A stretch of 64,000 bases of DNA from Ryuthela nishihirai (Eukaryota > Arthropoda > Arachnida > Araneae > Heptathelidae), in contig JAWZYU010000057.1 of assembly GCA_038380435.1 (NCBI GenBank), forward strand, positions 1,612,001 to 1,676,000. The letters run 5' to 3'. The position numbers were made by a program, and so were the translations under genes. The number at the start of each line of letters is the position of its first letter. Within the stretch, counting starts at the first letter, position 1. Shown here one piece after another: positions 770-48,690 of this stretch. The notes beneath the pieces are model-generated. The model had not been told where the DNA came from and did no database searches. It worked only from the letters and a program-made list of their open reading frames with translations.

Positions 770-1407
770 TGTTGCGGATCACAAAAATGGATAGCCACTG
801 AGCGTGAGTATTAAAAGCTATATTTCAAAACCAAATTCAATACAAGGTAAATTGTTACAAAGGAAATATGGATGAAGTATCTTATCAACAAATCAACTAT
901 TAACATGCACAAGTCATCAATCTTCCTGCGTAGAGCACACAATATCAGCTCTGTGTATTTTACTAAATACTACCTTTTACTTGATTTACCAGGTCACCCG
1001 AAGATCTTCACTCGTAAACCAATTCTCGTCCTGTGCTAATAACTTTTCACACAATAGCCGAACAAAAAGACAGTCCGTGTAGACATTCGAAGTTAGCCAT
1101 AAAAGTTCCCACTTTTATACTTCCGCGTATACACAACACATCAAGTTACTTCTTGATACTTAACGATAAAAGATCCCACTTTTATCCTTCCGCGTATACA
1201 CAACACATCAAGTTACTTCTTGATACTTACGCGCCTGTCTCAGAACAGCTCACCGTCCATTTTCGAACTCTCCGACCGTTACAACACACAACGACCGTTA
1301 CAATACAACGACCGTTAACGCTCCACTCTCCTTCTCCAAATTCTCCCAAAGTTCTTATTCGTTGGCTGAAACTTTGCTTTCGGTTGCCAGATTCTTCTGT
1401 CGTAACA
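770..1407 (-). repeat. 3' LTR of element 1
   Basis: This 638-bp LTR is identical by eye along its whole length to 4238-4875. It holds a tandem duplication with a 67-bp period: the motif CCCACTTTTAT..CTTCCGCG starts near 1108 and again near 1175. The element ORF ends inside it, with its stop at 1315-1317. The plus-strand reading frame at 1033-1422 is a by-product of the LTR and recurs in every LTR copy. Confidence 0.93.
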
Positions 1408-4206
1408 CTGCCCCCTTCCTAGGTCTTGTTCGTCCCGAACAATTCTGGATTCCAAAGCTTCTTCAGTTCTTCGATGAAACGGGGCCAAATGATCCACGTG
1501 AACCACCTTGCACTTTGTAGCTGGACATCGACGAATGCGATATACCACGTCTGTGTCAAAATGAAAGCGAATCTCATTATGACGTAGATTTCTTTTCTGA
1601 CTGAAGCCTCGTCCACAAACATAATACGTGTAAGGCCTATAGCCCTTGTGAACACGTTTATGTCTCTGCAGGGAGAAGAATCGACTAAGAGTTTTCGTGC
1701 AAACCCTGTAAAAAGTTTTCTTCTTTGTCGAAAGTTTTCTCCTTTGGATTTTTAATTCTATCAACAGTAACAAGGAATGAAAGTCATTAGTGACATAAAA
1801 TCTAGGGAGGAGTTTCATCCTCCAGTCTGACCATTTTGTCAGTTGACTTTCACTTAATTCAGAACTGTCGTGATGAACCTTCAGCCATATTTCACCTGAT
1901 TCAATTTGATCCCCAAGGTGCTTCACAATTATATCAGCTCCATAATTCTTTTTAGCGCTTCGGTCCATCTCCTCCTTCCATACTCTTGCTAGAACTGCAG
2001 CTTCTAATCCGACAACCTTACCTGTTTCTCCTGTATAAGTGAAATCAGTGATGTGTCGGGCTGCTAGCAATATTTTTTCTGTTTTACCTTCACATAGCCA
2101 GCTTGCAACATCTTCAGATACTCCTTGTTCTATTAACATGTTACGAAACTTGTTCAAAGCATTGCCGTTATGCAGAACCTTGCAGACACGTGATGCTTCA
2201 TCTACCCTATTATCCACAATGTTCACCAAACGCAGAAGTTCTCCTCCTAACTCTTCGACGAGCTCTTGCAGTTCCAAGGATCCGTTACCAAGGAAACACT
2301 GAACAGCTTCCATCACTTCCAGAGAGTTGTCAACAGAGTTTTCAAGAGGTGAATCCATGTTGCTGATAACAGCTGAACTCTTCATTCCACGAGCTTGTGA
2401 TGCTGCAACCATTTTCTTAACTAAATCAACAGCGTCTTCTGTACTGATGAGATCAATAGCTCCTTTTCCGAATTCAACATCATAAACCAAAGCGCACACT
2501 CCTTCAGCCAGCTTTTTGGACACAATTGAGCATCTCATTAGAGGAACGCTATCTACGGTAGCCGTCAGATCCTTGCAGCGGTAAATCTCCTTATCTGTTG
2601 GCACCAGCTCCTCTGTCTGTCCTACGATGCAGCATCCGACGTCTTCCATCATCTGCTCGATTTTATCTTTAGTGCAGTCGACTGTGAAGCCAGGGATGGA
2701 TTCCAATTTGTCCAGAGTATCTCCCATCAATTGGAGAGCACGACCGGAGATCATAGGGACCTTGAGACCTAAAGCAGCAAGTGCAGGAGCCAAGACAAGA
2801 CTCACTTTGTTGCCGACACCTCCTGTGCTGTTTTTATCTACCATCCGATGGCGCCACTCGGGTCTCCAGCAAAACACATGACCCGAGGAGGTCATATTTG
2901 CTGCTTCTTCCGAATTCACTTTCTTGGAGCTCTCATTGTAATTAGCCAGGGAAATATCAGTCATGATTGCCAAATTGTTCATTCTGGAGATCAGCGACGA
3001 GTTCTGTAACATGATATTGTCCACTTTAGAGCTCTTGTAGTCGTGATAAAACTTTTCTATATCCTTATAATCTAAATGGTTATAATGTCCAAATCTGCGC
3101 ATTGACTGTTCAGAAAAGAAATTCAGCATGGTTTCGTTGAGATTGTCTGAGGGCTTTACTTCTCTCTGATCGTAACTCTGAGGCTTAGTTTCATCCAGAA
3201 AGTTAGTCTTTGAAGTACTGTCTCTGCCTGAAGCTCTTTTACTAGCATCACCTGTTATGCTTCTAAGCCATCCTTCGGAATTCCTCTTCCTTAAATCCCC
3301 ACTTTCTATAAACGATTCAAGTGTGGCTATATGCTTCGGAAAAATCTCTCCGACTTCCCCGGTAACGACGAAGGGCACTTTGTATCTATGATGAATGGAC
3401 GCCTCTTCTTTACTCGGACCACTCTGCGAAACGTAAACTCTGTTTCGTTCCCCCTCATTACCACTCGTTACTCTGCCTTTGCGATAAATGTCCATGACAC
3501 ATTTTGCTGACGGCGAGGAATAGAATACCTTTCGTGTGGATCTCTCTTCAGATCGTGCCAGACTTGTATACCTAGGTATTTTGAAGTGCAAAGCGTACTG
3601 TTTAGTCTCACAGCTCTCTAATCTGTGTGATTGTTCTTCACAGTTCCTAGACATGTCACCAGCGACATAGACACTCTGCCATGCATTACCAGTAGTTGCG
3701 TGGTCAAAGGCATTATCTGTGCTATCTCTACAATTCTTGATTTCCAGTAGCAGATCCACATTTTTATATGCGTTGCCTTTCTCTTTTCCATGTTTACAAT
3801 CTAACTTAACACTATCAAGATCATCTTTTTCACTGACAAATTCAACATTTAAACTATTGCATTGTCTATTGAGTTCGGTTTTATGATCCTTGAAGTGATC
3901 AATAATCTTACCAACTCGAGAAGCCACTTCAGCTCTCATCTCAGTATTTTGTGCGGCTATTTCGGCTTTCAAATCATCTTTTCGAGAAACTATCTCCGTT
4001 CTCAACTCATTATTTTGTGCGGCCATTTCGGCTTTCAAATCATCTTTTCGAGAAACTATCTCAGTCCTCAACTCATTATTTCGTGCGGCCATTTCGGCTT
4101 TCAAATCATCTATTTTATCGCTTAGGGCGGCCATATCACCTTTAATATCAGCCTTCAAGTCATTTATCAACTTTACTAATTCATCCATACTTCTAGTTAA
4201 CGGCAT
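1315..4206 (-). CDS. Chimeric retroelement ORF: coiled coil, thymidine phosphorylase, C2H2 remnant, integrase tail
   Basis: An uninterrupted 963-codon ORF whose ATG lies 12 bases inside the primer-binding site. Residues 1-99 form a charged coiled coil with three 22-residue repeats (DDLKAEM..NNELRTEIVSRK type), probably gag-derived. Residues 100-440 are not recognised. Residues about 441-788 are a thymidine/pyrimidine-nucleoside phosphorylase lacking most of the N-terminal helical domain: DKNSTGGVG (457-465), SGRALQLMGDTLDKLE (487-502), the ATVDS..P..SIVSKKLAEG region (549-568) and the C-terminal VHHDS..LSESQL. Against the E. coli enzyme, the catalytic His85 is Asn459 and Arg171 is Lys545. Ser186 and Lys190 (Ser560, Lys564) and the phosphate-site Ser95, Ser113 and Thr123 (Ser469, Ser487, Thr497) are kept at exact spacing. 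Residues about 832-880 are two eroded C2H2 fingers. About 887-910 matches the end of gypsy-type integrases (YRIRR..TK.KVVHVD.LAP). The frame then crosses the polypurine tract into the LTR. Catalytic activity is doubtful. Confidence 0.85.
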   Translation of the reverse strand: MPLTRSMDELVKLINDLKADIKGDMAALSDKIDDLKAEMAARNNELRTEIVSRKDDLKAEMAAQNNELRTEIVSRKDDLKAEIAAQNTEMRAEVASRVGKIIDHFKDHKTELNRQCNSLNVEFVSEKDDLDSVKLDCKHGKEKGNAYKNVDLLLEIKNCRDSTDNAFDHATTGNAWQSVYVAGDMSRNCEEQSHRLESCETKQYALHFKIPRYTSLARSEERSTRKVFYSSPSAKCVMDIYRKGRVTSGNEGERNRVYVSQSGPSKEEASIHHRYKVPFVVTGEVGEIFPKHIATLESFIESGDLRKRNSEGWLRSITGDASKRASGRDSTSKTNFLDETKPQSYDQREVKPSDNLNETMLNFFSEQSMRRFGHYNHLDYKDIEKFYHDYKSSKVDNIMLQNSSLISRMNNLAIMTDISLANYNESSKKVNSEEAANMTSSGHVFCWRPEWRHRMVDKNSTGGVGNKVSLVLAPALAALGLKVPMISGRALQLMGDTLDKLESIPGFTVDCTKDKIEQMMEDVGCCIVGQTEELVPTDKEIYRCKDLTATVDSVPLMRCSIVSKKLAEGVCALVYDVEFGKGAIDLISTEDAVDLVKKMVAASQARGMKSSAVISNMDSPLENSVDNSLEVMEAVQCFLGNGSLELQELVEELGGELLRLVNIVDNRVDEASRVCKVLHNGNALNKFRNMLIEQGVSEDVASWLCEGKTEKILLAARHITDFTYTGETGKVVGLEAAVLARVWKEEMDRSAKKNYGADIIVKHLGDQIESGEIWLKVHHDSSELSESQLTKWSDWRMKLLPRFYVTNDFHSLLLLIELKIQRRKLSTKKKTFYRVCTKTLSRFFSLQRHKRVHKGYRPYTYYVCGRGFSQKRNLRHNEIRFHFDTDVVYRIRRCPATKCKVVHVDHLAPFHRRTEEALESRIVRDEQDLGRGQCYDRRIWQPKAKFQPTNKNFGRIWRRRVER
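1408..1420 (-). other. Polypurine tract of element 1
   Basis: On the sense strand the 13 bases next to the 3' LTR read AGGAAGGGGGCAG, directly before TGTTACG. This is the position and composition expected for the plus-strand primer of an LTR retrotransposon. The same tract is present in element 2. It is translated as part of the long ORF. Confidence 0.85.
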
Positions 4207-4217
4207 TCAATAAATTA

Positions 4218-4235
4218 ATCCCACTTCTGACACCA
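4218..4235 (-). other. tRNA-Leu primer-binding site of element 1
   Basis: The sense strand reads TGGTGTCAGAAGTGGGAT two bases after the 5' LTR. Its complement, ATCCCACTTCTGACACCA, is the 3' end of an animal tRNA-Leu (T-arm, acceptor stem and CCA). The match is 18 bases and reaches back into AATCCCAC of the T loop, so reverse transcription is probably primed by tRNA-Leu. Confidence 0.85.
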
Positions 4236-4237
4236 AA

Positions 4238-4875
4238 TGTTGCGGATCACAAAAATGGATAGCCACTGAGCGTGAGTATTAAAAGCTATATTTCAAAACC
4301 AAATTCAATACAAGGTAAATTGTTACAAAGGAAATATGGATGAAGTATCTTATCAACAAATCAACTATTAACATGCACAAGTCATCAATCTTCCTGCGTA
4401 GAGCACACAATATCAGCTCTGTGTATTTTACTAAATACTACCTTTTACTTGATTTACCAGGTCACCCGAAGATCTTCACTCGTAAACCAATTCTCGTCCT
4501 GTGCTAATAACTTTTCACACAATAGCCGAACAAAAAGACAGTCCGTGTAGACATTCGAAGTTAGCCATAAAAGTTCCCACTTTTATACTTCCGCGTATAC
4601 ACAACACATCAAGTTACTTCTTGATACTTAACGATAAAAGATCCCACTTTTATCCTTCCGCGTATACACAACACATCAAGTTACTTCTTGATACTTACGC
4701 GCCTGTCTCAGAACAGCTCACCGTCCATTTTCGAACTCTCCGACCGTTACAACACACAACGACCGTTACAATACAACGACCGTTAACGCTCCACTCTCCT
4801 TCTCCAAATTCTCCCAAAGTTCTTATTCGTTGGCTGAAACTTTGCTTTCGGTTGCCAGATTCTTCTGTCGTAACA
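4238..4875 (-). repeat. 5' LTR of element 1
   Basis: This 638-bp LTR is identical by eye to 770-1407. On the sense strand it should hold the promoter and transcription start of the element, though I see no unambiguous TATA box. It is followed on the plus strand by ATAT, the right copy of the target duplication. Confidence 0.93.
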
Positions 4876-4879
4876 ATAT

Positions 4880-6060
4880 ATTAAATTTGGTAAACCTTCA
4901 ATTTATTTCTTGTATAGAGTTGAACAGATGTATTTTGAAGTAATTCAGTTTTATTTTACATTTTGCATGCATATAATTTTATGAAGAATATATCCATAAG
5001 AGTATGTTCTCATGTGGTTACAAACATTAGTACGTTATTAAAATTTACCGCCAAAGATGACATCTCACCATCAGGCACTTATAAATTAAATTATTTTGTG
5101 AACTAAAAGATTAAAATTGAAACTCTATATACACTTGAAGAAATACTACAATCCAACTCATAATAGAAAACAAGTTTTTTACATCTGTAAAGTTTTGAAT
5201 CAATTTCTTAACTTTCTTAGTAAAACTAAAAAACACAATTTTTTATTTAGTTTGGTACTGTTCTATAAATTTAGAACTCAGTAAATTCAATGTTTTATAA
5301 AATGATTTTATCTGCCAGCAATTCGTATGAAAACATGCTTTTACCAGATCTAATATTCTGCATGTCCTAACGTTTGATAGCATAGTGTAGAATACACCGC
5401 ATGTGTTATATGTAACTCTATGGTTTTTGCCAAATGATAGCAAGCAAATATGTAATGTTAAAATTTTAGTTAGGGAAGTAAAAATATGGATATTTAACTA
5501 TGAGAACAATGGTTTACTGTTGTTAAATTAACTTCTATCTATTCGTTATATTTCTTAACTTGCTTTCTATCCTAATTGTATTATTAAACTTTTATTGTGA
5601 GCGTTCATGCACATAAATACTCTTATAGATAAATAGAACAGTTTTTGTTAAATGCATCTGTAAGCAGACGAGTGATAAATAATAATAAATAAAATTAAAG
5701 TAGTGTGGAATTTCTGAAAATCGTAGTATTTAAAATAAAAGAGGTTGCCCATCAAAGAGAAACCAAGAGAAAATCTTCTGCATTCATAGCGATCCATTGG
5801 TCTATATTCAAGCCACTATTTTCACTGTATTCTGCTAATATTGGGTATGGGGGGGACTGTCTTTAGTCGGGTGGGATTCGAACCCGATCATGTCATCAGG
5901 AGTTCGTCGGTTTAAAATCACATTCGGCTCAACAAAAGAAATTTTCTTTTATACACAGTAATAGTAGAATAGAGGAAAGATATAGTGGCTTGAATATAAA
6001 ATAATAGATTTCTATGAATACAAAAGTTTATGAGTATGGTAACTAAGATATACCAACAAG
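4880..6060. other. Unassigned AT-rich DNA
   Basis: No coding sequence is recognised. At about 5865-5905 there is a tRNA-like B-box on the minus strand (GGTTCGAATCCCACCCGAC), probably the head of a decayed SINE. A G-rich run sits just before it at about 5848-5855. Confidence 0.4.
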
Positions 6061-17709: not shown

Positions 17710-19668
17710 CTACTAGACTGGACTTGTTTATGGATTTGAGCTTGATTAGTGATCCTGGACTTGCTGCACTGGTGGGCCTCTGTTGAGGGACAGTCTGCCG
17801 CTGTGTTTTCTGTTTGCTTCTGGGTTGCCAGCTCTAAGTGAACAGAGGCATGGGATACCTTACATCAGCTGGTGAATAATCCTAATCATAGGCCATCGCA
17901 GGTACCTAAACCTTACTTAGCTAGATGGGCATCGTCAAGCCTAAACTGGAGTAATGTGTCTCAGGCAGGCCATGTGGTTCTTGAAAAAGTCCACTTGAAA
18001 AGGTGGTGCATGAAGTTCCTACCAGCATCGGTGACTTCAGCCTTTAGCGGAGGAGGAACAGGTCTTTGCCCCATGCCTGCGATCATGGGGCTGTTTGATA
18101 TTGTTGGCCTTACCTATCTCAATAAACCTAATTTCTTTAAAAATCCTACTAATCATTTTCTCTCTGCAGGAACGTGGAACGTGAGAACATTATATAGAGA
18201 TTATTCTCTTGATGACATCATGCAGGAATTCCAGCGCTATAACCTAGATATTCTAGGCTTGCAAGAGACCAGATGGACAGGTAAAGGTGAGATACTTAAA
18301 AATAACCTTAAATTTCTCTTTACAGGGAGGGAGGATGGAAAGCATCACCAAGGCGTAGGTCTGCTGCTCAGCAGACATGCTAGTGATGCTCTTCTAGGAT
18401 ATGAGTGCATTAATGAAAGGTTTCTTTAAATTTCAGATAAGCAAAATTTCAGATAAGCATTAAAGACTTGAATGTTCCTGTTATGCCCCCACTGAGGATT
18501 CTGATGAGGATGAGAAGGATAGGTTTTACGGACAACTTCAGGATATTTTGAATTTTGTCAAGAAAGGAGATATTACCCTTGTTCTAGGTGACTTCAATGC
18601 CAGAGTTGGTACTGACTCTGACCTTTGGGGAGGGGTGATAGACCCTTTTGGTATTGGTAGCTGCAATGGCTATGGGCAACGTCTCTTACAGGTAAGTAAA
18701 CTCAATGATTTCAGAATAACTAACACATATTGCAAACACCACGACATACATAAATACACATTGGTTTCACCTGATGGGCTGCATGGAAATATGATTGATT
18801 ATATATTAATTAACAGCAAATGGGCTAGTTCGGTTAGGAATACCAGGGCATATAGGAGAGCTAAAATTGTATCTGACCATTACCTTGTTAAAAGTGTATT
18901 GCAACTTAAACTTAAAAAGAATTGTGTTAAGGTTAAAAAATTTACTTTTAATACTGAAGCTCTGAAAGACCCAGTTATAGCTAAAGCTTACCATGATTGG
19001 TTGCTTAGTCATTATGGCAGTCATGGTTTGCTTACTACTGAAGTTGAGAAATAATGCGGCCGTTTTAAACAGGCTTTTCTGGAAACTAACAGTACTCTTT
19101 TAGGACAAAAGGAGCAGAGGAGACAGAATTATTTAAGTGATAAGGCGCTTGAGCTTATTTCAGAAAGAAGGAACTGCAGGAATATCCTTAATCTGTAACC
19201 TACTAGACCTAATAGAAAGGATTACAGAGAGCTTAATAAACGTGTAAAGGATCAGTTAACTTCTGATAAGAATCTTTGGCTTGATGGCTTGGCTGACAAA
19301 GCTGAGGAAGCAGTTAGGCAGCACAACAGCAGAGAGCTGTACCAGATAGTTAATGTTTTTTGTGGTAGAAAACGGACAGGTATACAGAGATTGAAGGATA
19401 AACAAGGTAAGGTTATAGAAGGTGAGGATTCTGTCATGGCTAGGTGGACTTAGCACTTCAGTGATATTCTAAACAATGTGGTTAGTTCTATTCTCATTGT
19501 TTGCAATGATGATAGATGCATTGGTGGCTTTAATGTTGGCCCTATAACACCAAATGAAGTTATTTTGGATGTTTCTAAACTTAAACTTCATAAATCCCCA
19601 GGGGTAGATGAAATTACTACAGAATTGCTTAGAGCTGGGAATGTTTCGGTTACCACTTGGAGATAAGT
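17710..19668 (+). mobile_element. LINE copy B, RTE-like, lacking the reverse transcriptase
   Basis: The first intact frame (17872-18429) runs from 5' leader into the AP-type endonuclease: GTWNVRTLYR, LGLQETRWTGKG (catalytic Glu) and VGLLLSRHASDALLGYE. After a frameshift the frame at 18548-19054 has LGDFNARVGTDS (the catalytic GDFN is kept), MIDYILINSKW and SDHYLVKS, the end of the endonuclease. Linker segments at 19255-19440 and 19478-19666 (SPGVDEITTELLRAGNVSVTTW) stop just before the reverse transcriptase, where repeat R begins. Copy B is dead, but it preserves residues that copy C has lost. Confidence 0.85.
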
Positions 19669-22800: not shown

Positions 22801-23754
22801 ATATGTTGGAAAGATATATAACATAGTAAATTATGAATAATTACGGTTAATGTTGAAAGAGGTAACCTTGCTTATAACATTGTGACGTTTTGAGCATTTC
22901 AATTATTCATAATTTCAGGCTGTTATTTAATTCGGTAAAAGTTTCAAGGTGATTGAAAGATTTAAGGTCCTAACGAGTGTAAAACGAAATTTGTTCCCTC
23001 CCTCGCATGAGGGGTTCTTTTACGTATGAGGCATCGGTCTGTAAATGGTAGCTAGGTAGTCACTGGAAAAAGAGCTATGCACCAATCCCCTGTGATAATG
23101 CATAGAACCGGCCAGGCCTAGAACCTAATGTCCGACCCCGCCTTCTCGTGGTGCAGACTGTTAGTACATTTCAAAAGAGATACTCTCTTGTGAAAGTGAA
23201 CGGAAAGGGAGGGCTGCCAGATTAGTGTGGCCTACTGATCTGGACAACTATGGCTACGTTTCTTTTTTTTCTACCCTGCTGAGGAGTGGTCAACCACACA
23301 GGGTCCTGGTGCTGACCATATAAACCACTGGACTGGACAGATATATGGCTCTGAGCTTGATTATAGATCTTGATTTTGCTGCACTGGTGGGCTTCTGTAG
23401 AGGGAAAATCTTCGGCTGTGTTTTCTGTTTGTTTGTGGGTTGACAACCCCAAGTGAATAGATTCGCAGGATATGTTTATCAGCTGGTGGATAATTCTGAG
23501 CAGAGGTCATCGCAGGCACCTGAACTCGTTGCTTCTATTGGCATCGTCAAATTCTACATTGGAGGAAGTCTTCCAGTGTAGATGGCTTCAGCCTCCTACA
23601 CTGGAAGATGCACTCATATCCTAGAATAGCATCACTAGCATGTCTGCTGAGAAGCAGACCCACGCCTTGCGGGGGTCTTCGCCTCATGTCTGCGATTAGG
23701 ATGGCTGTTTGATATTGTCGGCATTCCCTCTCTCAATAAGCATAGTTTCTTTAA

Positions 23755-24142
23755 ACATCCCACTAACCATTTTCTGTCCATAGGTAGTTGGAATATGAGG
23801 ACTCTGCACAGAGCTTTTTCTCTTGATGTCCTCACACAAGAATTCCACCATTATAATTTAGATGTTCTCGGCTTGCAAGAGACCAGATGGGCAGATAAAG
23901 GTCAGATTCTTAAAAATAATCTTAAATTTCTCTTTTCAGGGAGGGACGACAATAAGCATCATCAAGCCGTTGGTCTGCTTCTCAGCAGACACGCTAGTGA
24001 TGCTCTTCTACTATATGAGTGCATTATTGAAATGTTTCATACAGCAAAATTTCAGACAAGCGTTAAAGACTTGAATGTTGTCTGCTGATATGCCCCCACT
24101 GAGGATGAGAAGGATAGGATTTATGAACAACTTCAGGATATT
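23755..24142 (+). pseudogene. LINE copy C endonuclease N-terminal part
   Basis: The visible sequence is SIGSWNMRTLHRAFSLD, then LGLQETRWADKGQ (Glu of the AP endonuclease active site) and VGLLLSRHASDALL. It ends at TGA 24086-24088, directly before YAPTED. In this family the domain nicks the target DNA to prime reverse transcription. It is inactive as it stands because of the stop and the divergent upstream sequence. Confidence 0.8.
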
Positions 24143-25258
24143 TTGAATTCTGTCAAGAAAGGAGATATTATACTTGTTCTTCGTGACTTCAGTGCCAAAG
24201 TTGGTACTGACTCTGACCTTTGGGGAGGAGAAATAGGCTCTTTTGGTATTGGTAGCTGCAATGGCAATGAGCAACGTCTCCTACAGGTAAGTAAACTCAA
24301 TGGATTCAGAGTAACTAATACTTATTACAAACACCGCGACATACATAAGTACACATGGGTTTCACCCGATGGGCTGCATACGAATATGATTGGTTATATA
24401 ATAATTAACAGCAAATGGGCTAGTTCTGTTAGAAATACCAGATCATATAGGGGAGCTGAAATTGGATCTGACCATTACCTTGTTAAAAGTGTCTTGCAAC
24501 GTAAACTTAAAAAGTGTTGTGCTAGGGTTAAAAAATTTGCTTTTAATACTGAAGCTCTGAAAGACCTAGTTACAGCCAAAGCTTATCGTGTTAGGTTACT
24601 TAGTCATTATGACAGTCATGGTATGCTTACTACTGAAGTTGAGGAAGAATGGAACCATTTTAAAGAGGCTTTTTTGGACACTAACAGTACTCTTTTAGGA
24701 AAAAAGGAGCAGAAGAGACAGAATTATCCGAGTGATAAGGCTCTTGAGCTTATTTTGGAAAGAAAGAACTGCACGAATGTTCTTAATCAATACCCTACTA
24801 GTCCTAATAGAAAGCATTACAGAGAAATTAATGAACGCGTAAAAGATCAGTTAGCTGCTGATAAGAATCTTTGGCTTGATGGTTTGGCTGACAAAGCCGA
24901 GGAAGCAATTAGACAGCACAACAGCAGAGGGCTGTACCAGATAGTTAATGTTTTGTGTGGTAGAAAACGGACAGGTATACAAGGATTGAAGGATAAACAA
25001 AATAAGGTTATAGAAGGGGAGGATTCTGTCATGGCTAGGTGGGCTGAGCATTTCAGTGATGTTCTAAACAATGTAGTTAGTTCTACTCCCATTGTTTGCA
25101 ATGATGATAGATGCATTGGTGGCTTTAATGTTGGCCCTATAACACAATATGAAGATATTTTGGCTGTCTCTAAACTTAAACTTCATAAATTCCCTGGGGT
25201 AGATGAAATTACTACAGAAATGCTTAGCGCTGGGATGTTTCGGTTACCACTTGGATGA
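24143..25258 (+). pseudogene. LINE copy C endonuclease C-terminal part and linker
   Basis: This 371-codon open stretch carries the second half of the endonuclease. LRDFSAKVGTDS replaces the LGDFNARVG of copy B, so both the conserved Gly and the catalytic Asn are changed. SDHYLVKS marks the domain end. A linker rich in Lys and Glu follows to GVDEITTEMLSAG. The last residues (FRLPLG) are out of frame after the 1-base deletion near 25234. Confidence 0.82.
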
Positions 25259-26190
25259 CTGAAATTCTGAATATCTTTTATGATAAAGGCATGGTTCCTA
25301 AGGATTTTACCAGAACTATTATTATCCCTATTTTCAAAAAAGGTGATCGCAGTCCTTGTGTTAACTATAGGGGTATCAGCCTACTCTCTGTTCCAGGTAA
25401 AGTTCTTTCCATGATTGTGCTTAATAGAATTAAGAATCTGGTTGACAGGCAATTGCGTGATGAGCAATGTGGATTCAGAAGTGGTAGGGGATGTGTGGAT
25501 CAGATATTTTCACTTAGGCAGATTTTTGAGAAATATTTAGAGTTTCAGAAACCTTTGGTTGCTAGCTTTGTTGATTTCAAAAAGGCTTTTGACTCTGTTG
25601 ATCGTCATAATTTGTGGTTGATTGTGAGATCATATGGTATACCAGACAAGTTAGTTAACATAATGAAAGCTCTCTATAATAATACTGAGTCGTGTGTGAG
25701 AGTTGGTAAGGCTTGTAGCAATTGGTTTAGCATTACTTCTAGTGTTCGACAAGGGTGCATTTTGTCTCCTTTTCTCTTTAGCTTGGTTATTGGTTATGTT
25801 CTGCGAAATTCACTGCAAGAGAAAGATTTTGGCCTTAAATGGACTGGAGATACGAAAATTTCTGAATTAGATTATGCTGATGATTTAGCCCTTTTGGCAA
25901 ATGATGTTGATGAGATTAACTCTTTCATTCGTGCTGTTGATGAGACTGGTAGTAGAGTAGGTTTGGTTATAAACAGAGAGAAAACTAAAGTGATGAAAAT
26001 TGGTCAAGCAGGCTGTGATTCAGGTAATCTGAATGGTTGCAGTCTTGAGCAGGTGTCACAGTTTAATTTTCTTGGGAGCTATGTAACAGATAATTGTGAT
26101 GTGCGGCATGAGATTAACAGACGAATAGGGATTGCTGCCGGAATTTTAAGAATCTATGGAGAGTGTGGAGAAATTGGTGTATACACCTAA
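25235..26190 (+). pseudogene. LINE copy C reverse transcriptase
   Basis: The palm and fingers motifs appear in order: PIFKKGDRSPCVNYRGISLL, GFRSGRGCVDQI, ASFVDFKKAFDSVDR (first catalytic Asp), SVRQGCILSPFLFSL and LDYADDLALLAND (YADD), with LGSYVTDN and RRIGIAAG beyond. The frame is open for 311 codons from 25255. It then decays, with recognisable SYGSETWTLC and RRLRSILGIRW in shifted frames and a terminal WRTKLDGLVGPP near 26526. It would make cDNA from the element RNA if intact. Confidence 0.88.
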
Positions 26191-29429: not shown

Positions 29430-29975
29430 TGTCTAAAGGATTACCCATCGTACTTGTATTCGCAAATTTATCATTTTATACGTGAACTCCTAAAGGTAAA
29501 CCAAGTAGGCTATTTAAATATTTTCTCCAACCGCACATGTCACTGCCAAGAATAATAGTTAGTTTCGTTATAGGAACGTATTCAGTGTGTTAAACTATGT
29601 TCTTAATTGGTACACTACACTGTGATAAACAAAACATCTTTTCATAAAACTATTACATATCGCGTCTTATAAATTGCCACAATACGGTTCTTTCAACCGA
29701 TTGTTCATTAATTTACAATTTATTATCAATAATAAAGGTTTAGCGATGTTTTTTTCGTACATTTTATTAGGATTTAAAATCAGTGATGAAATTTACGTGT
29801 AATATAATTGTAATAAAATTAAGTAAGCTTAATGTTTGGTTACTAAATGTTTCCAGTGGTGAATATTTCCTTTTTCAGTAAGTTACTTACGATGGTTATT
29901 TTTCCTACGTGTAGAGTATAAAAAATGTGATTTCACGATAATTTTTTTGTACGGTAGGGCATCCTTTCTACACAA
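29430..29975. other. Spacer between convergent histone genes
   Basis: AT-rich spacer with no gene recognised. A purine-rich block on the minus strand (AGAAAGGATG, about 29961-29970) after the H1 stem-loop sits where the histone downstream element should be. Confidence 0.4.
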
Positions 29976-29980
29976 TATGT

Positions 29981-29996
29981 GGCTCTTAAAAGAGCC
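29981..29996 (-). terminator. Histone 3' stem-loop after H1
   Basis: On the minus strand GGCTCTTTTAAGAGCC is a perfect 6-bp stem with a 4-base loop, exactly the metazoan histone consensus. It lies 31 bases after the ancestral H1 stop at 30028-30030. Confidence 0.92.
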
Positions 29997-30027
29997 TTTT
30001 GTTATTGATTTCTTATTTTATAGTTCA

Positions 30028-30633
30028 CTACTTCCCAATTTTCTTTGGAACAGTTTTCTTCGTAGCAGGGCTTTTTTTTTAGGTGCTTTCGGTTTGGTCA
30101 CCTTGTTTTTTTTTCGGACTCTTAGCAGGTTTGCTTTTCTTGGCAGCGGAAGGTTTCTTCTCTGCAGCCGTTTTCTTCTTCTCACCGGTTTTTTTGGGCT
30201 TCGATACCTTTTTCGCAACACTGGAGGTTTTTGGCTTTTTTGTTTTTCCTTCTTTCTTAGTACTTTTGATTTTTACTGGTTTTTCTTTCGTCTTCTGACC
30301 AGTAGCACTCAGCTTAAAGGAACCAGTTGCACCTTTACCTTTGGTCTGAACGAGTTGCCCACTGGCTGCTGCTGTCTTGAGATATTTCGTGATAAAGGGA
30401 GCTAGACGTTCGATGTCTACCTTGTAGTGAGAGGCAATGTATTTTTTGATAGCCTGAAACGACGAACCACCTCTTTCCTTCAGTGCAGTGATCGCCGTAA
30501 TCACCATCTCTGACACCTTAGGATGAGAAGCGGCAATCTTCGATTTTTTCGGCTTTCCGGCAGTTGCCTTGCCCCTCTTTTTAGGTGAAACCGCAGCTGG
30601 AACATTGATCTCTGCAGCTGTATCAGACAGCAA
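30028..30633 (-). pseudogene. Linker histone H1, start lost and tail frameshifted
   Basis: The protein reads [12 protein letters not shown], a Lys/Pro-rich segment, the winged-helix globular domain ([20 protein letters not shown] through [15 protein letters not shown], roughly residues 38-100) and a Lys/Ala/Pro-rich tail. The codon before SDTAA is CTG, not ATG, and the upstream sequence is transposase. The 5' UTR and promoter are therefore gone. In the tail the frame breaks twice, each time at a run of nine A: near 30105-30114 the frame moves to [11 protein letters not shown], and near 30071-30080 it moves to ATKKTVPKKIGK followed by TAG at 30028-30030. Without repair the first frame ends at 30079. 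Homopolymer sequencing error could explain the tail breaks but not the lost start. It is convergent with H4, as in a histone cluster remnant. Confidence 0.88.
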
Positions 30634-31269
30634 AAGGGGTCTATAACGCAGTGAACCCGCACCCTGCTGTCACCTTTGGCAGATGCAAAGAGGTTTCCAC
30701 AATCGCGTATGGGTTCTCTCTTGACCAGATGCGACAGTTGTGTTCATTTACACTTCCATTAAGCGAAACGTGCACCTCATCAGTCCACAGGACGTTTGAC
30801 AGCCAGTCCGCATTGTTTTCCATCTCTTGAAAAGCCCAATTTGCAAATTCATGACGTCTCTCGAAATCGGTGGTTTCAGTTCCTGTACGTGTTGGATTTT
30901 GTAAGGATACCTCTTGAGGATGATCCTGAGTGATCGCCACACAGTCTCATACGAAATACCAGTTCGTCTTGAAATATCACGCGCACTGCATTCCCCATGT
31001 GCGGAAGCTGCCGATTGTGTGTCGGCCTCGTGTTCGACCTCGTGCACAACTACAGGAGTTTCTTTGGGTCTCCCGCTTCTTGCACATGCTTCCAAACTGC
31101 CAGTGTCCTCAAACCTTTTCATCATAGCTATCAGTGAGGAACAAGACATCGGTCCCTTTCCTGTTCTAATACCCCTCATCGAACGATAGGTGCGCAAAGC
31201 CTCACCTGCACATTCGGAGTTCTGATAATAGAGCTTAACTAAAAGTGCTTTATCTCGTAACGATAACAT
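30634..31269 (-). pseudogene. Mariner/IS630-like transposase, 3'-truncated at the H1 junction
   Basis: Residues 1-115 hold an N-terminal helix-turn-helix region (MLSLRDKALLVKLYYQN..) and a second one (SARDISRRTGISYETVWRSL). After a 1-base frameshift near 30870 the frame continues DFERRHEFANW, LWTDEVHVSLNGSV (first catalytic Asp region) and [14 protein letters not shown], then meets the H1 coding sequence. The rest of the catalytic domain is missing. The protein would cut and join transposon ends, but this copy is dead. Confidence 0.75.
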
Positions 31270-39353: not shown

Positions 39354-39975
39354 TGTTGCGGATCACAAAAATGGATAGCCACTGAGCGTGAGTATTAAAA
39401 GCTATATTTCAAAACCAAATTCAATACAAGGTAAATTGTTACAAAGGAAATATGGATGAAGTATCTTATTAACAAATTAACTATTAACATGCACAAGTCA
39501 TCAATCTTCCTGCGTGAGCACACAACATCAGCTCTGTGTATTTTACTAAATACTACCTTTTACTTGATTTACCAGGTCACCCGAAGATCTTCACTCGTAA
39601 ACCAATTCTCGTCCTGTGCTAATAACTTTTCACACACTAGCCGAACAAAAAGACAGTCCGTGTAGACATTCGAAGTTAGCCATAAAAGTTCCCACTTTTA
39701 TCCTTCCGTGTATACACAACACATCAAGTTACTTCTTGATACTTAACGATAAAAGATCCCACTTTTATCCTTCCGCGTATACACAACACATCAAGTTACT
39801 TCTTGATACTTACGCGCACTGTCTCAGAACAGCTCACCGTCCATTTTCGAACTCACCGACCGTTACAATACAACGACCGTTAACGCTCCACTCTCCTTCT
39901 CCAAATTCTCCCAAAGTTCTTATTCGTTGGCTGAAACTTTTTGCTTTCGGTTGCCAGATTCCTTCTGTCGTAACA
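39354..39975 (-). repeat. 3' LTR of element 2
   Basis: This 622-bp LTR is identical by eye to 42708-43329 at every site where it differs from element 1, for example TATTAACAAATTAAC, GCGTGAGCACAC, CACACTAGCCG and ATTCCTTCTG. The 67-bp internal duplication is retained. The ORF of the element stops inside it at 39880-39882. Confidence 0.92.
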
Positions 39976-42675
39976 CTGCCCCCTTCCTAGGTCTTGTTCG
40001 TCCCGAACAATTCTGGATTCCAAAGTTTCTTCAGTTCTTCGATGAAACGGGGCCAAACGATCCACGTGAACCACCTTGCACTTTGTAGCTGGACGTCGAC
40101 GAATGCGATATTCCACGTCTGTGTCAAAATGAAAGCGAATCTCATTATGACTTAGATTTCTTTTCTGACTGAAGCCTCGTCCACAAATATAATACGTGTA
40201 AGGCCTATAGCCCTTGTGAACACGTTTATGTCTCCGCAGGGAGAAGAATCGACTAAGAGTTTTCGTGCAAAACCTGTAAAAAGTTTTCTTCTTTGTCGAA
40301 AGTTTTCTTCTTTGGATTTTTACTTCTATCAACAGTAACAAGGAATGAAAGTCATTAGTGACATAAAATCTAGGGAGGAGTTTCATCCTCCAGTCTGACC
40401 CTTTTGTCAGTTGACTTTCACTTAATTCAGAACTGTCGTGATGAACCTTCAGCCATATTTCACCTGATTCAATTTGATCCCCAAGGTGCTTCACAAATAT
40501 AATATCAGCTCCATAATTCTTTTTAGCGTTTCGGTCCATCTCCTCCTTCCATACTCTTGCTAGAACTGCAGCTTCTAATCCGACAACCTTACCTGTTTCT
40601 CCTGTATAAGTGAAATCAGTGATGTGTCGGGCTGCTAGCAATATTTTTTCTGTTTTACCTTCACATAGCCAGCTTGCAACATCTTCAGATACTCCTTGTT
40701 CTATTAACATGTTACGAAACTTGTTCAAAGCATTGCCGTTATGCAGAACCTTGCGGACACGTGATGCTTCATCTACCCTATTATCCACAATGTTCACCAA
40801 ACGCAGAAGTTCTCCTCCTAACTCTTCGACGAGCTCTTGCAGTTCCAAGGATCCGTCACCAAGGAAACACTGAACAGCTTCCATCACTTCCAGAGAGTTG
40901 TCAACAGAGTTTTCAAGAGGTGAATCCATGTTGCTGATAACAGCTGAACAACTCAAACTCTTCATTCCACGAGCTTGTGATGCTGCAACCATTTTCTTAA
41001 CTAAATCAACAGCAACATCTTCTGTACTGATGAGATCAATAGCTCCTTTTCCGAATTCAACATCATAAACCAAAGCGCACACTCCTTCAGCCAGCTTTTT
41101 GGACACAATTGAGCATCTCCTTAGAGGAACGCTATCTACGGTAGCCGTCAGATCCTTGCAGCGGTAAATCTCCTTATCTGTTGGCACCAGCTCCTCTGTC
41201 TGTCCTACGATGCAGCATCCGACGTCTTCCATCATCTGCTCGATTTTATCTTTAGTGCAGTCGACTGTGAAGCCAGGGATGGATTCCAATTTGTCCAGAG
41301 TATCTCCCGTCAATTGGAGAGCACGACCGGAGATCATAGGGACCTTGAGACCTAAAGCAGCAAGTGCAGGAGCCAAGACAAGACTCACTTTGTTGCCGAC
41401 ACCTCCTGTGCTGTTTCTATCTACCATCCGATGGCGCCACTCGGGTCTCCAGCAAAACACATGACCCGAGGAGGTCATATTTGCTGTTTCTTCCGAATTC
41501 ACTTTCTTGGAGCTCTCATTGTAATTAGCCAGGGAAACATCAGTCATGATTGCCAAATTGTTCATTCTGGAGATCAGCGACGAGTTTTGTAACATGATAT
41601 TGTCCACTTTAGAGCTCTTGTAGTCGTGATAAAACTTTTCTATATCCTTATAATCTAAATGGTTATAATGTCCAAATCTGCACATTGACTGTTCAGAAAA
41701 GAAATTCAGCATGGTTTCGTTGAGATTGTCTGAGGGCTTTACTTCTCTCTGATCGTAACTCTGAGGCTTAGTTTCATCCAGAAAGTTAGTCTTTGAAGTA
41801 CTGTCTCTGCCTGAAGCTCTTTTACTAGCATCACCTGTTATGCTTCTAAGCCATCCTTCGGAATTCCTCTTCCTTAAATCCCCACTTTCTATAAACGATT
41901 CGAGTGTGGCTATATGCTTCGGAAAAATCTCTCCGACTTCCCCGGTAACGACGAAGGGCACTTTGTATCTATGATGAATGGACGCCTCTTCTTTACTCGG
42001 ACCACTCTGCGAAACGTAAACTCTGTTTCGTTCCCCCTCATTACCACTCGTTACTCTGCCTTTGCGATAATTGTCCATGACACATTTTGCTGACGGCGAG
42101 GAATAGAATACCTTTCGTGTGGATCTCTCTTCAGATCGTGCCAGACTTGTATACCTAGGTATTTTGAAGTGCAAAGCGTACTGTATAGTCTCACAGCTCT
42201 CTGATCTGTGTGATTGTTCTTCACAGTTCCTAGACATGTCACCAGCGACATAGACACTCTGCCATGCATCACCAGTAGTTGCGTGGTCAAAGGCATTATC
42301 TGCGCTATCTCTACGATTCTTGATTTCCAGTAGCAGATCCACATTTTTATATGCGTTGCCTTTCTCTTTTTCTTTTCCATGTTTACAATCTAACTTAACA
42401 CTATCAAGATCATCTTTTTCACTGACAAATTCAACATTTAAACTATTGCATTGTCTATTGAGTTCGGTTTTATGATCCTTGAAGTGATCAATAAACTTAC
42501 CAACTTGAGAAGCCACTTCAGCTCTCATCTCGGTATTTTGTGCGGCCATTTCGGCTTTCAAGTCATCTTTTTGAGAAACTATCTCAGTTCTCAACTCATT
42601 ATATTGTGCGGCCATATCGGCTTTCATATCAGTCATCAGCTTTATTAACTCATCCATACTTCTAGTGAAAGGCAT
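39880..42675 (-). CDS. Chimeric retroelement ORF with thymidine phosphorylase (element 2)
   Basis: 931 codons without interruption, with the same domain order as in element 1. The coiled-coil region is 40 residues shorter (59 against 99), having fewer 22-residue units. Other differences are in-frame: +2 residues in KEKEKGN, +1 in EDVAVD, +3 in GMKSLSCSAV and +1 in IIFVKH. In the part overlapping the LTR, a +1 and a +2 base insertion cancel out. The phosphorylase again has Asn (421) for the catalytic His, now preceded by Arg instead of Lys in DRNSTGGVG, and Lys for the second nucleoside-site residue (YRCKDLTATVDS). It reads SGRALQLTGDTLDKLE, keeping a family Thr lost in element 1. The eroded C2H2 segment and integrase tail (RIRRRPATKCKVVHVDRLAP) follow. 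Confidence 0.85.
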   Translation of the reverse strand: MPFTRSMDELIKLMTDMKADMAAQYNELRTEIVSQKDDLKAEMAAQNTEMRAEVASQVGKFIDHFKDHKTELNRQCNSLNVEFVSEKDDLDSVKLDCKHGKEKEKGNAYKNVDLLLEIKNRRDSADNAFDHATTGDAWQSVYVAGDMSRNCEEQSHRSESCETIQYALHFKIPRYTSLARSEERSTRKVFYSSPSAKCVMDNYRKGRVTSGNEGERNRVYVSQSGPSKEEASIHHRYKVPFVVTGEVGEIFPKHIATLESFIESGDLRKRNSEGWLRSITGDASKRASGRDSTSKTNFLDETKPQSYDQREVKPSDNLNETMLNFFSEQSMCRFGHYNHLDYKDIEKFYHDYKSSKVDNIMLQNSSLISRMNNLAIMTDVSLANYNESSKKVNSEETANMTSSGHVFCWRPEWRHRMVDRNSTGGVGNKVSLVLAPALAALGLKVPMISGRALQLTGDTLDKLESIPGFTVDCTKDKIEQMMEDVGCCIVGQTEELVPTDKEIYRCKDLTATVDSVPLRRCSIVSKKLAEGVCALVYDVEFGKGAIDLISTEDVAVDLVKKMVAASQARGMKSLSCSAVISNMDSPLENSVDNSLEVMEAVQCFLGDGSLELQELVEELGGELLRLVNIVDNRVDEASRVRKVLHNGNALNKFRNMLIEQGVSEDVASWLCEGKTEKILLAARHITDFTYTGETGKVVGLEAAVLARVWKEEMDRNAKKNYGADIIFVKHLGDQIESGEIWLKVHHDSSELSESQLTKGSDWRMKLLPRFYVTNDFHSLLLLIEVKIQRRKLSTKKKTFYRFCTKTLSRFFSLRRHKRVHKGYRPYTYYICGRGFSQKRNLSHNEIRFHFDTDVEYRIRRRPATKCKVVHVDRLAPFHRRTEETLESRIVRDEQDLGRGQCYDRRNLATESKKFQPTNKNFGRIWRRRVER
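39976..39988 (-). other. Polypurine tract of element 2
   Basis: The sense-strand bases AGGAAGGGGGCAG lie directly before the 3' LTR, identical to element 1. Confidence 0.85.
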
Positions 42676-42687
42676 TCAATTAAATTA

Positions 42688-42705
42688 ATCCCACTTCTGA
42701 CACCA
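42688..42705 (-). other. tRNA-Leu primer-binding site of element 2
   Basis: TGGTGTCAGAAGTGGGAT on the sense strand, two bases inside the 5' LTR, is complementary to the 3' end of animal tRNA-Leu and unchanged from element 1. Confidence 0.85.
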
Positions 42706-42707
42706 AA

Positions 42708-43329
42708 TGTTGCGGATCACAAAAATGGATAGCCACTGAGCGTGAGTATTAAAAGCTATATTTCAAAACCAAATTCAATACAAGGTAAATTGTTACAAAG
42801 GAAATATGGATGAAGTATCTTATTAACAAATTAACTATTAACATGCACAAGTCATCAATCTTCCTGCGTGAGCACACAACATCAGCTCTGTGTATTTTAC
42901 TAAATACTACCTTTTACTTGATTTACCAGGTCACCCGAAGATCTTCACTCGTAAACCAATTCTCGTCCTGTGCTAATAACTTTTCACACACTAGCCGAAC
43001 AAAAAGACAGTCCGTGTAGACATTCGAAGTTAGCCATAAAAGTTCCCACTTTTATCCTTCCGTGTATACACAACACATCAAGTTACTTCTTGATACTTAA
43101 CGATAAAAGATCCCACTTTTATCCTTCCGCGTATACACAACACATCAAGTTACTTCTTGATACTTACGCGCACTGTCTCAGAACAGCTCACCGTCCATTT
43201 TCGAACTCACCGACCGTTACAATACAACGACCGTTAACGCTCCACTCTCCTTCTCCAAATTCTCCCAAAGTTCTTATTCGTTGGCTGAAACTTTTTGCTT
43301 TCGGTTGCCAGATTCCTTCTGTCGTAACA
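42708..43329 (-). repeat. 5' LTR of element 2
   Basis: A 622-bp LTR identical by eye to 39354-39975. It is followed on the plus strand by ATATATATT, which includes the right ATAT of the target duplication. Confidence 0.92.
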
Positions 43330-47785: not shown

Positions 47786-47909
47786 CGTGGAGCATATCGA
47801 TGCATTTGGGTGTCTGCATTCAATTACCAAGGCCCCAGAATTAAGTAACCGAAAGTCGAAAAACGCTTCGACTATTTCAGGAATAGTCGTCTCTAAATAA
47901 GTTAATTGA

Positions 47910-48690
47910 GCCAGTGCTGACTCTGGTCCTGTGATCTGGTGCTGGAATCTAGATGCTTTGAATCGGTGATGTAATCTGGGTCCTTTGATTCGGTTCTGGA
48001 ATCTGGATCCTTTGAACTGGTGCTGGAATCTGGATCCTTTGAACTGGTGCTGGAATCTGGGTTCTTTGTTCCGATGCTCATACCAAGGTGTTTAATCTTG
48101 GACTGGAACCTAGGTCCTTTGATTATGTGTTGGAAACTGGGTTTTTTATTCAGAGCTCGAAACTCGGTTCTTTGAACCGGTGCTGCAATATGAGTCTTTT
48201 GAACCGCTGCTGAGATCTAGGTCCTTTGATCTTATGTTGGAATCTAGGTCCTTTGATCCGATGCTCATACCAAGGGGTTTAATCCTAGACTGGAAAATGG
48301 GTTCTTTAATATTGGTCTGGAACCTGGGTTTTTGATTTTGGACTTGAAACTTGGTCCTTTGAACCGGTGCTACAATCTGAGTCTTTTGAACCAGTGCTGC
48401 AATCTGGGTCCTTTGAACCGGTGCTGGAATCTAGGTCCTTTGATCCTGTGCTGGAATCTGGGTCTTCTGTTTCGATGCTCATACCAAGGTGCTTAATCCT
48501 GAACTGCAATCTGGGTCCTTTGATATTGGGCTGGAACCTGGGTTTTTGATTCTTGGCTCAAACTGGGTCTTTTGAACCGGTGTTGGAATCTAGGTCCTTT
48601 GATCCTGTGCTGGAATCTGGATCTTTTGTTTCGATGCTCGTACAAAGGTGCTTAATCCTGGACTGCAACCTGGATCCTTTGACATTAGTT
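47910..48690. repeat. Minisatellite, about 30-bp unit with higher-order structure
   Basis: There are many imperfect units of the form GGTGCTGGAATCTGGGTCCTTTGAACC. A different 47-base block, TGCTCATACCAAGG.G.TTAATC.TGGACTG, recurs at about 48075, 48259, 48472 and 48632, giving a higher-order repeat of about 160-215 bp. The minus strand stays open over parts of it and encodes a 10-residue repeat (SKDPDSSTG type), but there is no start or context for a gene. Confidence 0.85.

Follow-up and report, generated by a model that had tools for sequence, protein, structure and literature searches.

A thymidine phosphorylase fragment captured by an abundant, probably non-autonomous LTR retrotransposon family of the spider Ryuthela nishihirai

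Why would a long terminal repeat (LTR) retrotransposon carry a nucleotide-salvage gene in place of its own polymerase, and keep it readable? The question is raised by a 64,000-nucleotide stretch of the R. nishihirai genome (contig JAWZYU010000057.1, positions 1,612,001 to 1,676,000; hereafter the window), in which two LTR elements at 770-4875 (element 1) and 39354-43329 (element 2), both with minus-strand sense, each hold a thymidine phosphorylase (TP) fragment inside a single open reading frame (ORF). An initial annotation had read this arrangement as the capture of an intronless gene and had suggested that the element profits from the effect of the enzyme on nucleotide supply. The capture is borne out by what follows, while a benefit from an active enzyme is not. 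We consider it probable that these elements form a non-autonomous, gene-capturing, trans-mobilised LTR family, similar to the maize element Bs1 but abundant, in which the captured sequence is kept for its open frame rather than for its enzyme. In residues 139-805 of 17 copies, 161 substitutions include 0 stops versus 7.5 expected from the observed spectrum (P 4.4e-4) at an omega of 1.01 (95% interval 0.71-1.46).

Paired identical LTRs, a primer binding site (PBS), a polypurine tract (PPT) and a short target-site duplication mark both elements as LTR retrotransposons, and ATAT lies on the outer side of both ends of each. PBS and PPT were found in element 1 and element 2 alike, the PBS set two bases inward of the 5′ LTR and the PPT at the 3′ LTR. 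The annotated parts are as follows.

766-769, strand not applicable: ATAT adjoining the 3′ LTR of element 1, target-site copy
770-1407, minus strand: 3′ LTR of element 1, 638 nt, 0 differences from 4238-4875
1315-4206 (stop included), minus strand: single ORF of element 1, 963 aa
1318-1551, minus strand: integrase C-terminal tail, element 1 residues 886-963, running into the LTR; PF22938 match, and gag-pol homology from position 5491 of the gag-pol copy L013 on
1408-1420, minus strand: PPT of element 1, adjoining the 3′ LTR
1552-1722, minus strand: remnant of two C2H2 zinc fingers, element 1 residues ~829-885, Tyr replacing the first Cys in both
1843-2895, minus strand: captured TP fragment, element 1 residues 438-788, homologous to PF00591 and human TP; probably inactive
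2896-3792, minus strand: captured segment upstream of TP, element 1 residues 139-437, with a PANTS-like match below cut-off only
3793-4206, minus strand: Gag N-terminal coiled coil, element 1 residues 1-138, common to the gag-pol partner
4218-4235, minus strand: PBS of element 1 (18 nt), separated from the 5′ LTR by two bases
4238-4875, minus strand: 5′ LTR of element 1, 638 nt, identical to 770-1407
4876-4879, strand not applicable: ATAT adjoining the 5′ LTR of element 1, target-site copy
39354-39975, minus strand: 3′ LTR of element 2, 622 nt, 0 differences from 42708-43329
39880-42675, minus strand: single ORF of element 2, 931 aa, its parts ordered as in element 1
42708-43329, minus strand: 5′ LTR of element 2, 622 nt, identical to 39354-39975

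The TP segment matches PF00591 at E 5e-35 in element 1 and 5.7e-33 in element 2, residues 438-788 of element 1 match human TP at E 1.6e-79, and the segment aligns with cellular TPs without interruption, as an intronless sequence. The initial description of two LTR elements, each with one ORF and an intronless TP between a Gag coil and an integrase tail, is therefore upheld, with the C2H2 zinc-finger stretch and a segment of ~300 residues as additional components. The integrase tail scores 27.1 bits against PF22938 in element 1 (cut-off 27) and 23.2 bits, below the cut-off, in element 2, and its identity is upheld by homology to gag-pol copies. In both zinc fingers the first Cys is changed to Tyr in 13/13 readable copies. 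The N-terminal TP domain PF02885 was not recognised in the element ORFs, though it was recognised in three cellular TPs. An AlphaFold model (mean pLDDT 77.2, pTM 0.79) places low-confidence helices at the N-terminal part of TP, where a far-diverged remnant of the N-terminal helical domain may possibly persist.

Searches of the host assembly (3.11 Gb in 1680 contigs) with the TP segment and the LTR, as the initial annotation had proposed, showed that the family recurs in at least 116 places with TP. The TP-segment search gave 2545 first-look candidates, of which 116 were scored by a ranking that favours intact copies; 116/116 matches span residues 1-351 of the segment, 114/116 lack a stop, and 111/116 lie within frames of 820 aa or more. 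Ranking by 46 residues taken from the segment upstream of TP provided a second sample of 149 matches; 146 of them resemble element copies (not each checked), and in 120/146 the frame is 820 aa or longer. With the LTR of element 1 as query, 40 of 1720 candidates were scored; they came from 26 places, all 26 of which were read, and TP was seen in 16, gag-pol in 7 and no internal sequence in 3. Among the 16 TP places one is a duplicate of element 1 and another, L024, holds two copies; the choice by LTR similarity favours young copies. The 18-nt PBS is unchanged in 4/4 gag-pol and 9/15 TP copies, with one mismatch in a further 5/15, and the PPT is unchanged in 14/15 TP and 4/4 gag-pol copies. ATAT adjoins the 5′ LTR in 12/13 and the 3′ LTR in 13/13 elements (L012-L019 and others), which indicates a strong target-site preference. 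One copy, L014, lacks the PBS at its expected place; its first LTR is followed instead by bases resembling those beside its other LTR. Of the 14 TP copies in which the two LTRs were compared (the atypical L014 excluded), 8 have identical pairs, and these young insertions, together with the many copies, indicate a recent spread of the TP family.

Since their flanks differ, elements 1 and 2 are independent insertions. Neither ground on which the initial annotation would have been withdrawn, a TP segment missing from other LTR-bounded copies or a segmental duplication with shared flanks, applies to these two copies. Element 1 itself occurs again on its own contig, inverted and ~1.5 Mb apart (L009, C57:136085-142190), with identical flanks over all bases compared (1000/1000 and 769/769); the pair is therefore counted as one insertion and would be either a recent duplication or an assembly artefact.

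The initial annotation had also predicted an autonomous partner with the same LTR ends and PBS, and such elements are present. Gag-pol elements of 6.2-6.3 kb share LTRs, PBS, PPT and flanking ATAT with the TP elements. Both LTRs are present in four copies, three of which have an unbroken ORF (1649, 1663 and 1685 aa), the fourth, L012, having one stop. L013 encodes a CCHC zinc knuckle, aspartic protease, reverse transcriptase (RT), RNase H and integrase, and its protease-RT-RNase H-integrase order is that of Ty3/gypsy elements. These elements are likely the autonomous partner, and the TP elements are probably non-autonomous members of a Ty3/gypsy-type LTR family. Their common ends, together with the mosaic copies described below, suggest that partner proteins package, copy and insert TP-element RNA.

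Comparison of 11 TP copies with four gag-pol copies, in L013 coordinates, places the boundaries of the exchange. Homology to L013 stops on the gag side at 1073-1084 in 11/11 TP copies and resumes on the integrase side at 5491 in 10/11, the exception being L021 (5554, through a deletion). Such common junctions imply one capture, in which ~4.4 kb of gag-pol was replaced by ~2.2 kb, and the earlier statement that pol is otherwise lost agrees with this gap relative to the partner. Exchange between the two types has also left mosaics. In L034 the first 973 nt are 98.4% identical to the gag-pol copy L017, whereas identity to L013 is 91.4% over the first 841 nt. In L042 (C15:34694682 region) a 1772-aa open frame comprises the Gag coil, captured residues to ~414 and gag-pol from residue 335 on, the gag-pol part joining the captured segment at 97% identity and TP being lost; on its sequence, L042 reads as a recombinant between TP-type and gag-pol-type elements. 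Mosaics such as L034 and L042 would be the expected outcome of co-packaging and template switching.

As to the source of the captured sequence, the element TP groups with animal TPs in a tree of 37 proteins (animal group supported at 0.894), next to those of arthropods (support of only 0.677), and its branch is the longest of all the animal TPs; the protein search feeding the tree covered proteins of 530-1685 aa, and nearer TPs of ordinary size are possible. An animal-type TP, in the same order in independent insertions and inside LTRs with PBS and PPT in both, supports the original claim of capture over chance adjacency. The uninterrupted alignment is what would be expected of a spliced mRNA source. 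The intron-bearing donor gene that had been anticipated did not emerge: no N-terminal exon of a cellular TP was found in the genome with PF02885 or with two N-terminal queries, though short exons can be missed by such searches. The queries, from Gryllus and Chamberlinius, had best genome matches of only E 1.27 and 7.06, with stops. Among nine scored candidates the sole PF02885 match, on C16, was a 319-aa ORF that by eye resembles a bacterial anthranilate phosphoribosyltransferase and not a TP; this open frame (C16:11097126-11098082; L029, L031, L032), resembling bacterial trpD by eye, may reflect horizontal transfer or contamination. Residues 1-437 of the element had no match at E 0.001 among 7993 scored proteins of 530-1685 aa. 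Within the ~300 residues between coil and TP (139-437), residues 158-203 show a weak resemblance to the PANTS-like family PF11326 (17.8 bits, cut-off 27); no PANTS origin is claimed here, the genome's own PANTS exon (C12, 33.4 bits) having no convincing similarity to the element. No viral relative was confirmed among viral contigs, which gave six pattern matches.

These observations can be arranged into a proposed history. In an ancestral copy, ~4.4 kb comprising most of Gag, protease, RT, RNase H and most of integrase would have been swapped out once, presumably by template switching from a spliced mRNA, for an insert of ~2.2 kb fused in frame and made up of the residue 139-437 segment, a fragment of animal TYMP and the zinc-finger stretch. 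The parts acting in cis (LTRs, PBS, 5′ gag, PPT) would have been retained and the trans functions lost, and the gag-pol partner still in the genome would copy the TP family in trans. TP would then be cargo whose amino acids drift neutrally while its frame stays open, with RNAs of curtailed frame leaving fewer copies; the simplest cause would be their removal before packaging, for example by nonsense-mediated decay.

Spectrum-corrected counts supersede the pairwise NG86 estimates of dN/dS; they were made on 15/17 copies and on 17/17 copies, in the latter case after masking the poorly aligned tails of L011, L021 and L027. For TP alone omega is 1.13 (95% interval 0.66-2.01). The NG86 values, based on 12 of 14 aligned copies (excluding L011 and L027), were 1.12 (TP), 0.86 (coil) and 1.03 (integrase tail). 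A frame of at least 770 aa is open in 14/17 copies. Seven gag-pol copies treated by the same method served as control; here omega is 0.28 for the region replaced by the capture (p 3.7e-5) and 0.05 for RT-RNase H, and the difference between TP and control is clear (Fisher p 1.1e-4). The retained open frame suggests that RNAs with early stops yield fewer copies. Going further, one might tentatively propose that the captured gene is a readable filler, indifferent in sequence, which lets ribosomes cross nearly all of the genomic RNA, so that the RNA escapes early-stop decay and reaches partner particles. If so, what is selected would be the cis effect of translating the RNA rather than the protein itself, and a gene-sized ORF would be kept open at an omega of ~1.

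Several observations weigh against this account. The deficit in TP alone is weak (75 substitutions, 0 stops versus 3.4 expected; P 0.03). Three of the 17 copies (L024a, L034 and L035) are broken early, and L020, L034 and L035 share a 19-nt frame-shifting deletion at residue 821, so that a lineage with a shortened tail has spread all the same. The replaced region of the gag-pol control has 2 stops versus 1.8 expected, without depletion, and an open frame would therefore be no general demand on RNAs of the family, as far as this small sample goes. By the cruder pairwise NG86 method dN/dS was 0.43 in residues 139-437 and 0.45 in the stretch holding the zinc fingers (789-885), and some constraint on these two parts is possible. 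Finally, since the donor gene was not found, capture from spliced mRNA is something we can only infer.

The strongest rival is that the open frame reflects mere youth, with few intact source copies and too little time for decay, and neither protein nor translation of consequence. Most paired copies do have 0-1 LTR differences, dead copies exist, and the gag-pol copies, as just noted, show no stop deficit. The 161 substitutions between copies nevertheless include no stop, and the same absence recurs in 10 copies with 0-1 LTR differences (the atypical L014 included), where 126 substitutions include 0 stops versus 5.7 expected (P 3.1e-3); the LTRs being nearly identical, nearly all of these changes must predate insertion. 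Indels, read by eye, point the same way. In residues 139-820, 9 distinct indels are in frame and 2 shift it (9/11, p 0.0014), or 9/12 in frame (p 0.0039) with the shared 19-nt deletion at 821 included; in residues 821-963, 1 is in frame and 6 shift it (Fisher p 0.009 versus 139-820), and thus frame shifts gather at the extreme end of the ORF. We regard youth alone as a possible though unlikely explanation.

A structural role is another alternative, and a rather doubtful one: the Gag coil would dock on partner Gag and the TP fold would act as a dimerising filler, so that the fold matters and the exact residues do not. The coil is indeed retained, frames stay open, and the TP core is predicted to fold (core blocks at pLDDT 85-98 within the model described above). 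The omega of TP, on the other hand, leaves core residues without a sign of constraint. In human TP the N-terminal helical part forms the dimer interface (PMC2719695), and in the element this part is unrecognised by sequence and modelled at low confidence. Moreover, L018, L021 and L027 lack parts of the N-terminal helical region or of TP.

Least of the functional readings survives the suggestion that an active TP alters the nucleotide pool to the benefit of the element, which we now hold to be very improbable. Its appeal lay in the clear homology to human TP and in a segment that is open in 114/116 scored copies. The active site, surveyed in 17 copies with human numbering by our own alignment, is altered in every copy: 17/17 copies have Lys at the equivalent of R202, Asp at that of G153 and Leu at that of H150, 15/17 have Asn at that of H116, and at that of K115 Lys is retained in 8 copies and replaced by Glu in 8 and by Arg in 1. 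The equivalents of S117, S144, T154, Y199, S217, K221 and K222 are retained in 17/17 copies. Human TP is described as inactive when mutated to K115E, R202S, H116F or H116K, and as almost normal with K115A (PMC2719695); a loss of bonds to thymine is predicted for R202K, and patients have been found with R202T and with G153S (PMC11069602). The enzyme reading is disfavoured because active-site residues are altered in every copy, in ways reported for human TP to be inactivating or harmful, and the absence of amino-acid constraint also counts against it; judged by these residues, the element TP probably lacks catalysis. As for chance adjacency, segmental duplication or assembly artefact, the inverted recurrence of element 1 with its flanks on one contig lends them their only colour, and they are hardly credible given that the flanks differ in element 2 and in the other copies retrieved, each of which lies between ATAT sites, and that the TP segment was scored in 116 places across many contigs.

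Other features lie in the same window. A minus-strand ORF at 30082-30669, histone H1-like and accompanied by a histone 3′ stem-loop (29956-30001), has no Met start among its first in-frame residues; the first and most of its top named matches are from spiders, with other chelicerates (horseshoe crab, tick) and some insects lower (among the best 120 of 1060 matches). LINE copies, identified by eye, lie at 17842-19051 and 23651-26187, with endonuclease frames in both and a reverse transcriptase in the second, and a repeat array with 27-nt spacing occupies 47904-48686.

Probably non-autonomous and mobilised in trans, the TP family offers a natural experiment, with more than 100 scored copies and an identified partner, in which selection for an open frame and selection on amino acids can be separated; it makes testable whether LTR element RNA requires translation in cis. 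For annotation it serves as a warning that a genome with hundreds of open TP-like ORFs may owe them to a mobile element rather than to a gene family. In a literature search no TP-carrying LTR element was found, one fungal genome paper containing both terms.

Gene capture by LTR elements is already known, mostly from small numbers of copies or from cases in which selection acts on the captured protein. The maize element Bs1 has a low copy number. It is described as an LTR retroelement whose hybrid ORF joins pieces of several genes of its host, the donors being H+-ATPase, xylan endohydrolase and glucanase (PMC13317346). The TP family is like Bs1 in having host-derived coding sequence joined into a hybrid ORF, and unlike this plant element with three identified donors in being animal, in having many copies and a partner that was found, and in having one identified donor type; set against Bs1, it also has a frame open without amino-acid constraint. 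Crocodilian endogenous retroviruses captured KIT-ligand or nectin3 mRNA, nectin3 replacing env (PMC4299795), and are likewise animal LTR elements with captured host mRNA, as we infer for the TP family. Their captured ORF is under purifying selection, with six nectin3 insertions in one species (PMC4299795), whereas the TP family lacks constraint and has had nearly all of gag-pol replaced. In bdelloid rotifers, LTR retrotransposons carry extra enzymatic ORF3s (esterase, exonuclease; some dUTPase) (PMC5408684), and they too are invertebrate LTR elements that have gained enzyme coding sequence; the rotifer elements keep gag and pol and have the enzyme as an added ORF, while the TP family has captured sequence in place of gag-pol and an enzyme that appears inactive. 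Plant LTR retrotransposons with transduced ORFs, present in one or few copies (PMC7264820), resemble the TP family in holding a foreign ORF inside LTRs and differ from it in number, the TP piece occurring in at least 116 scored places.

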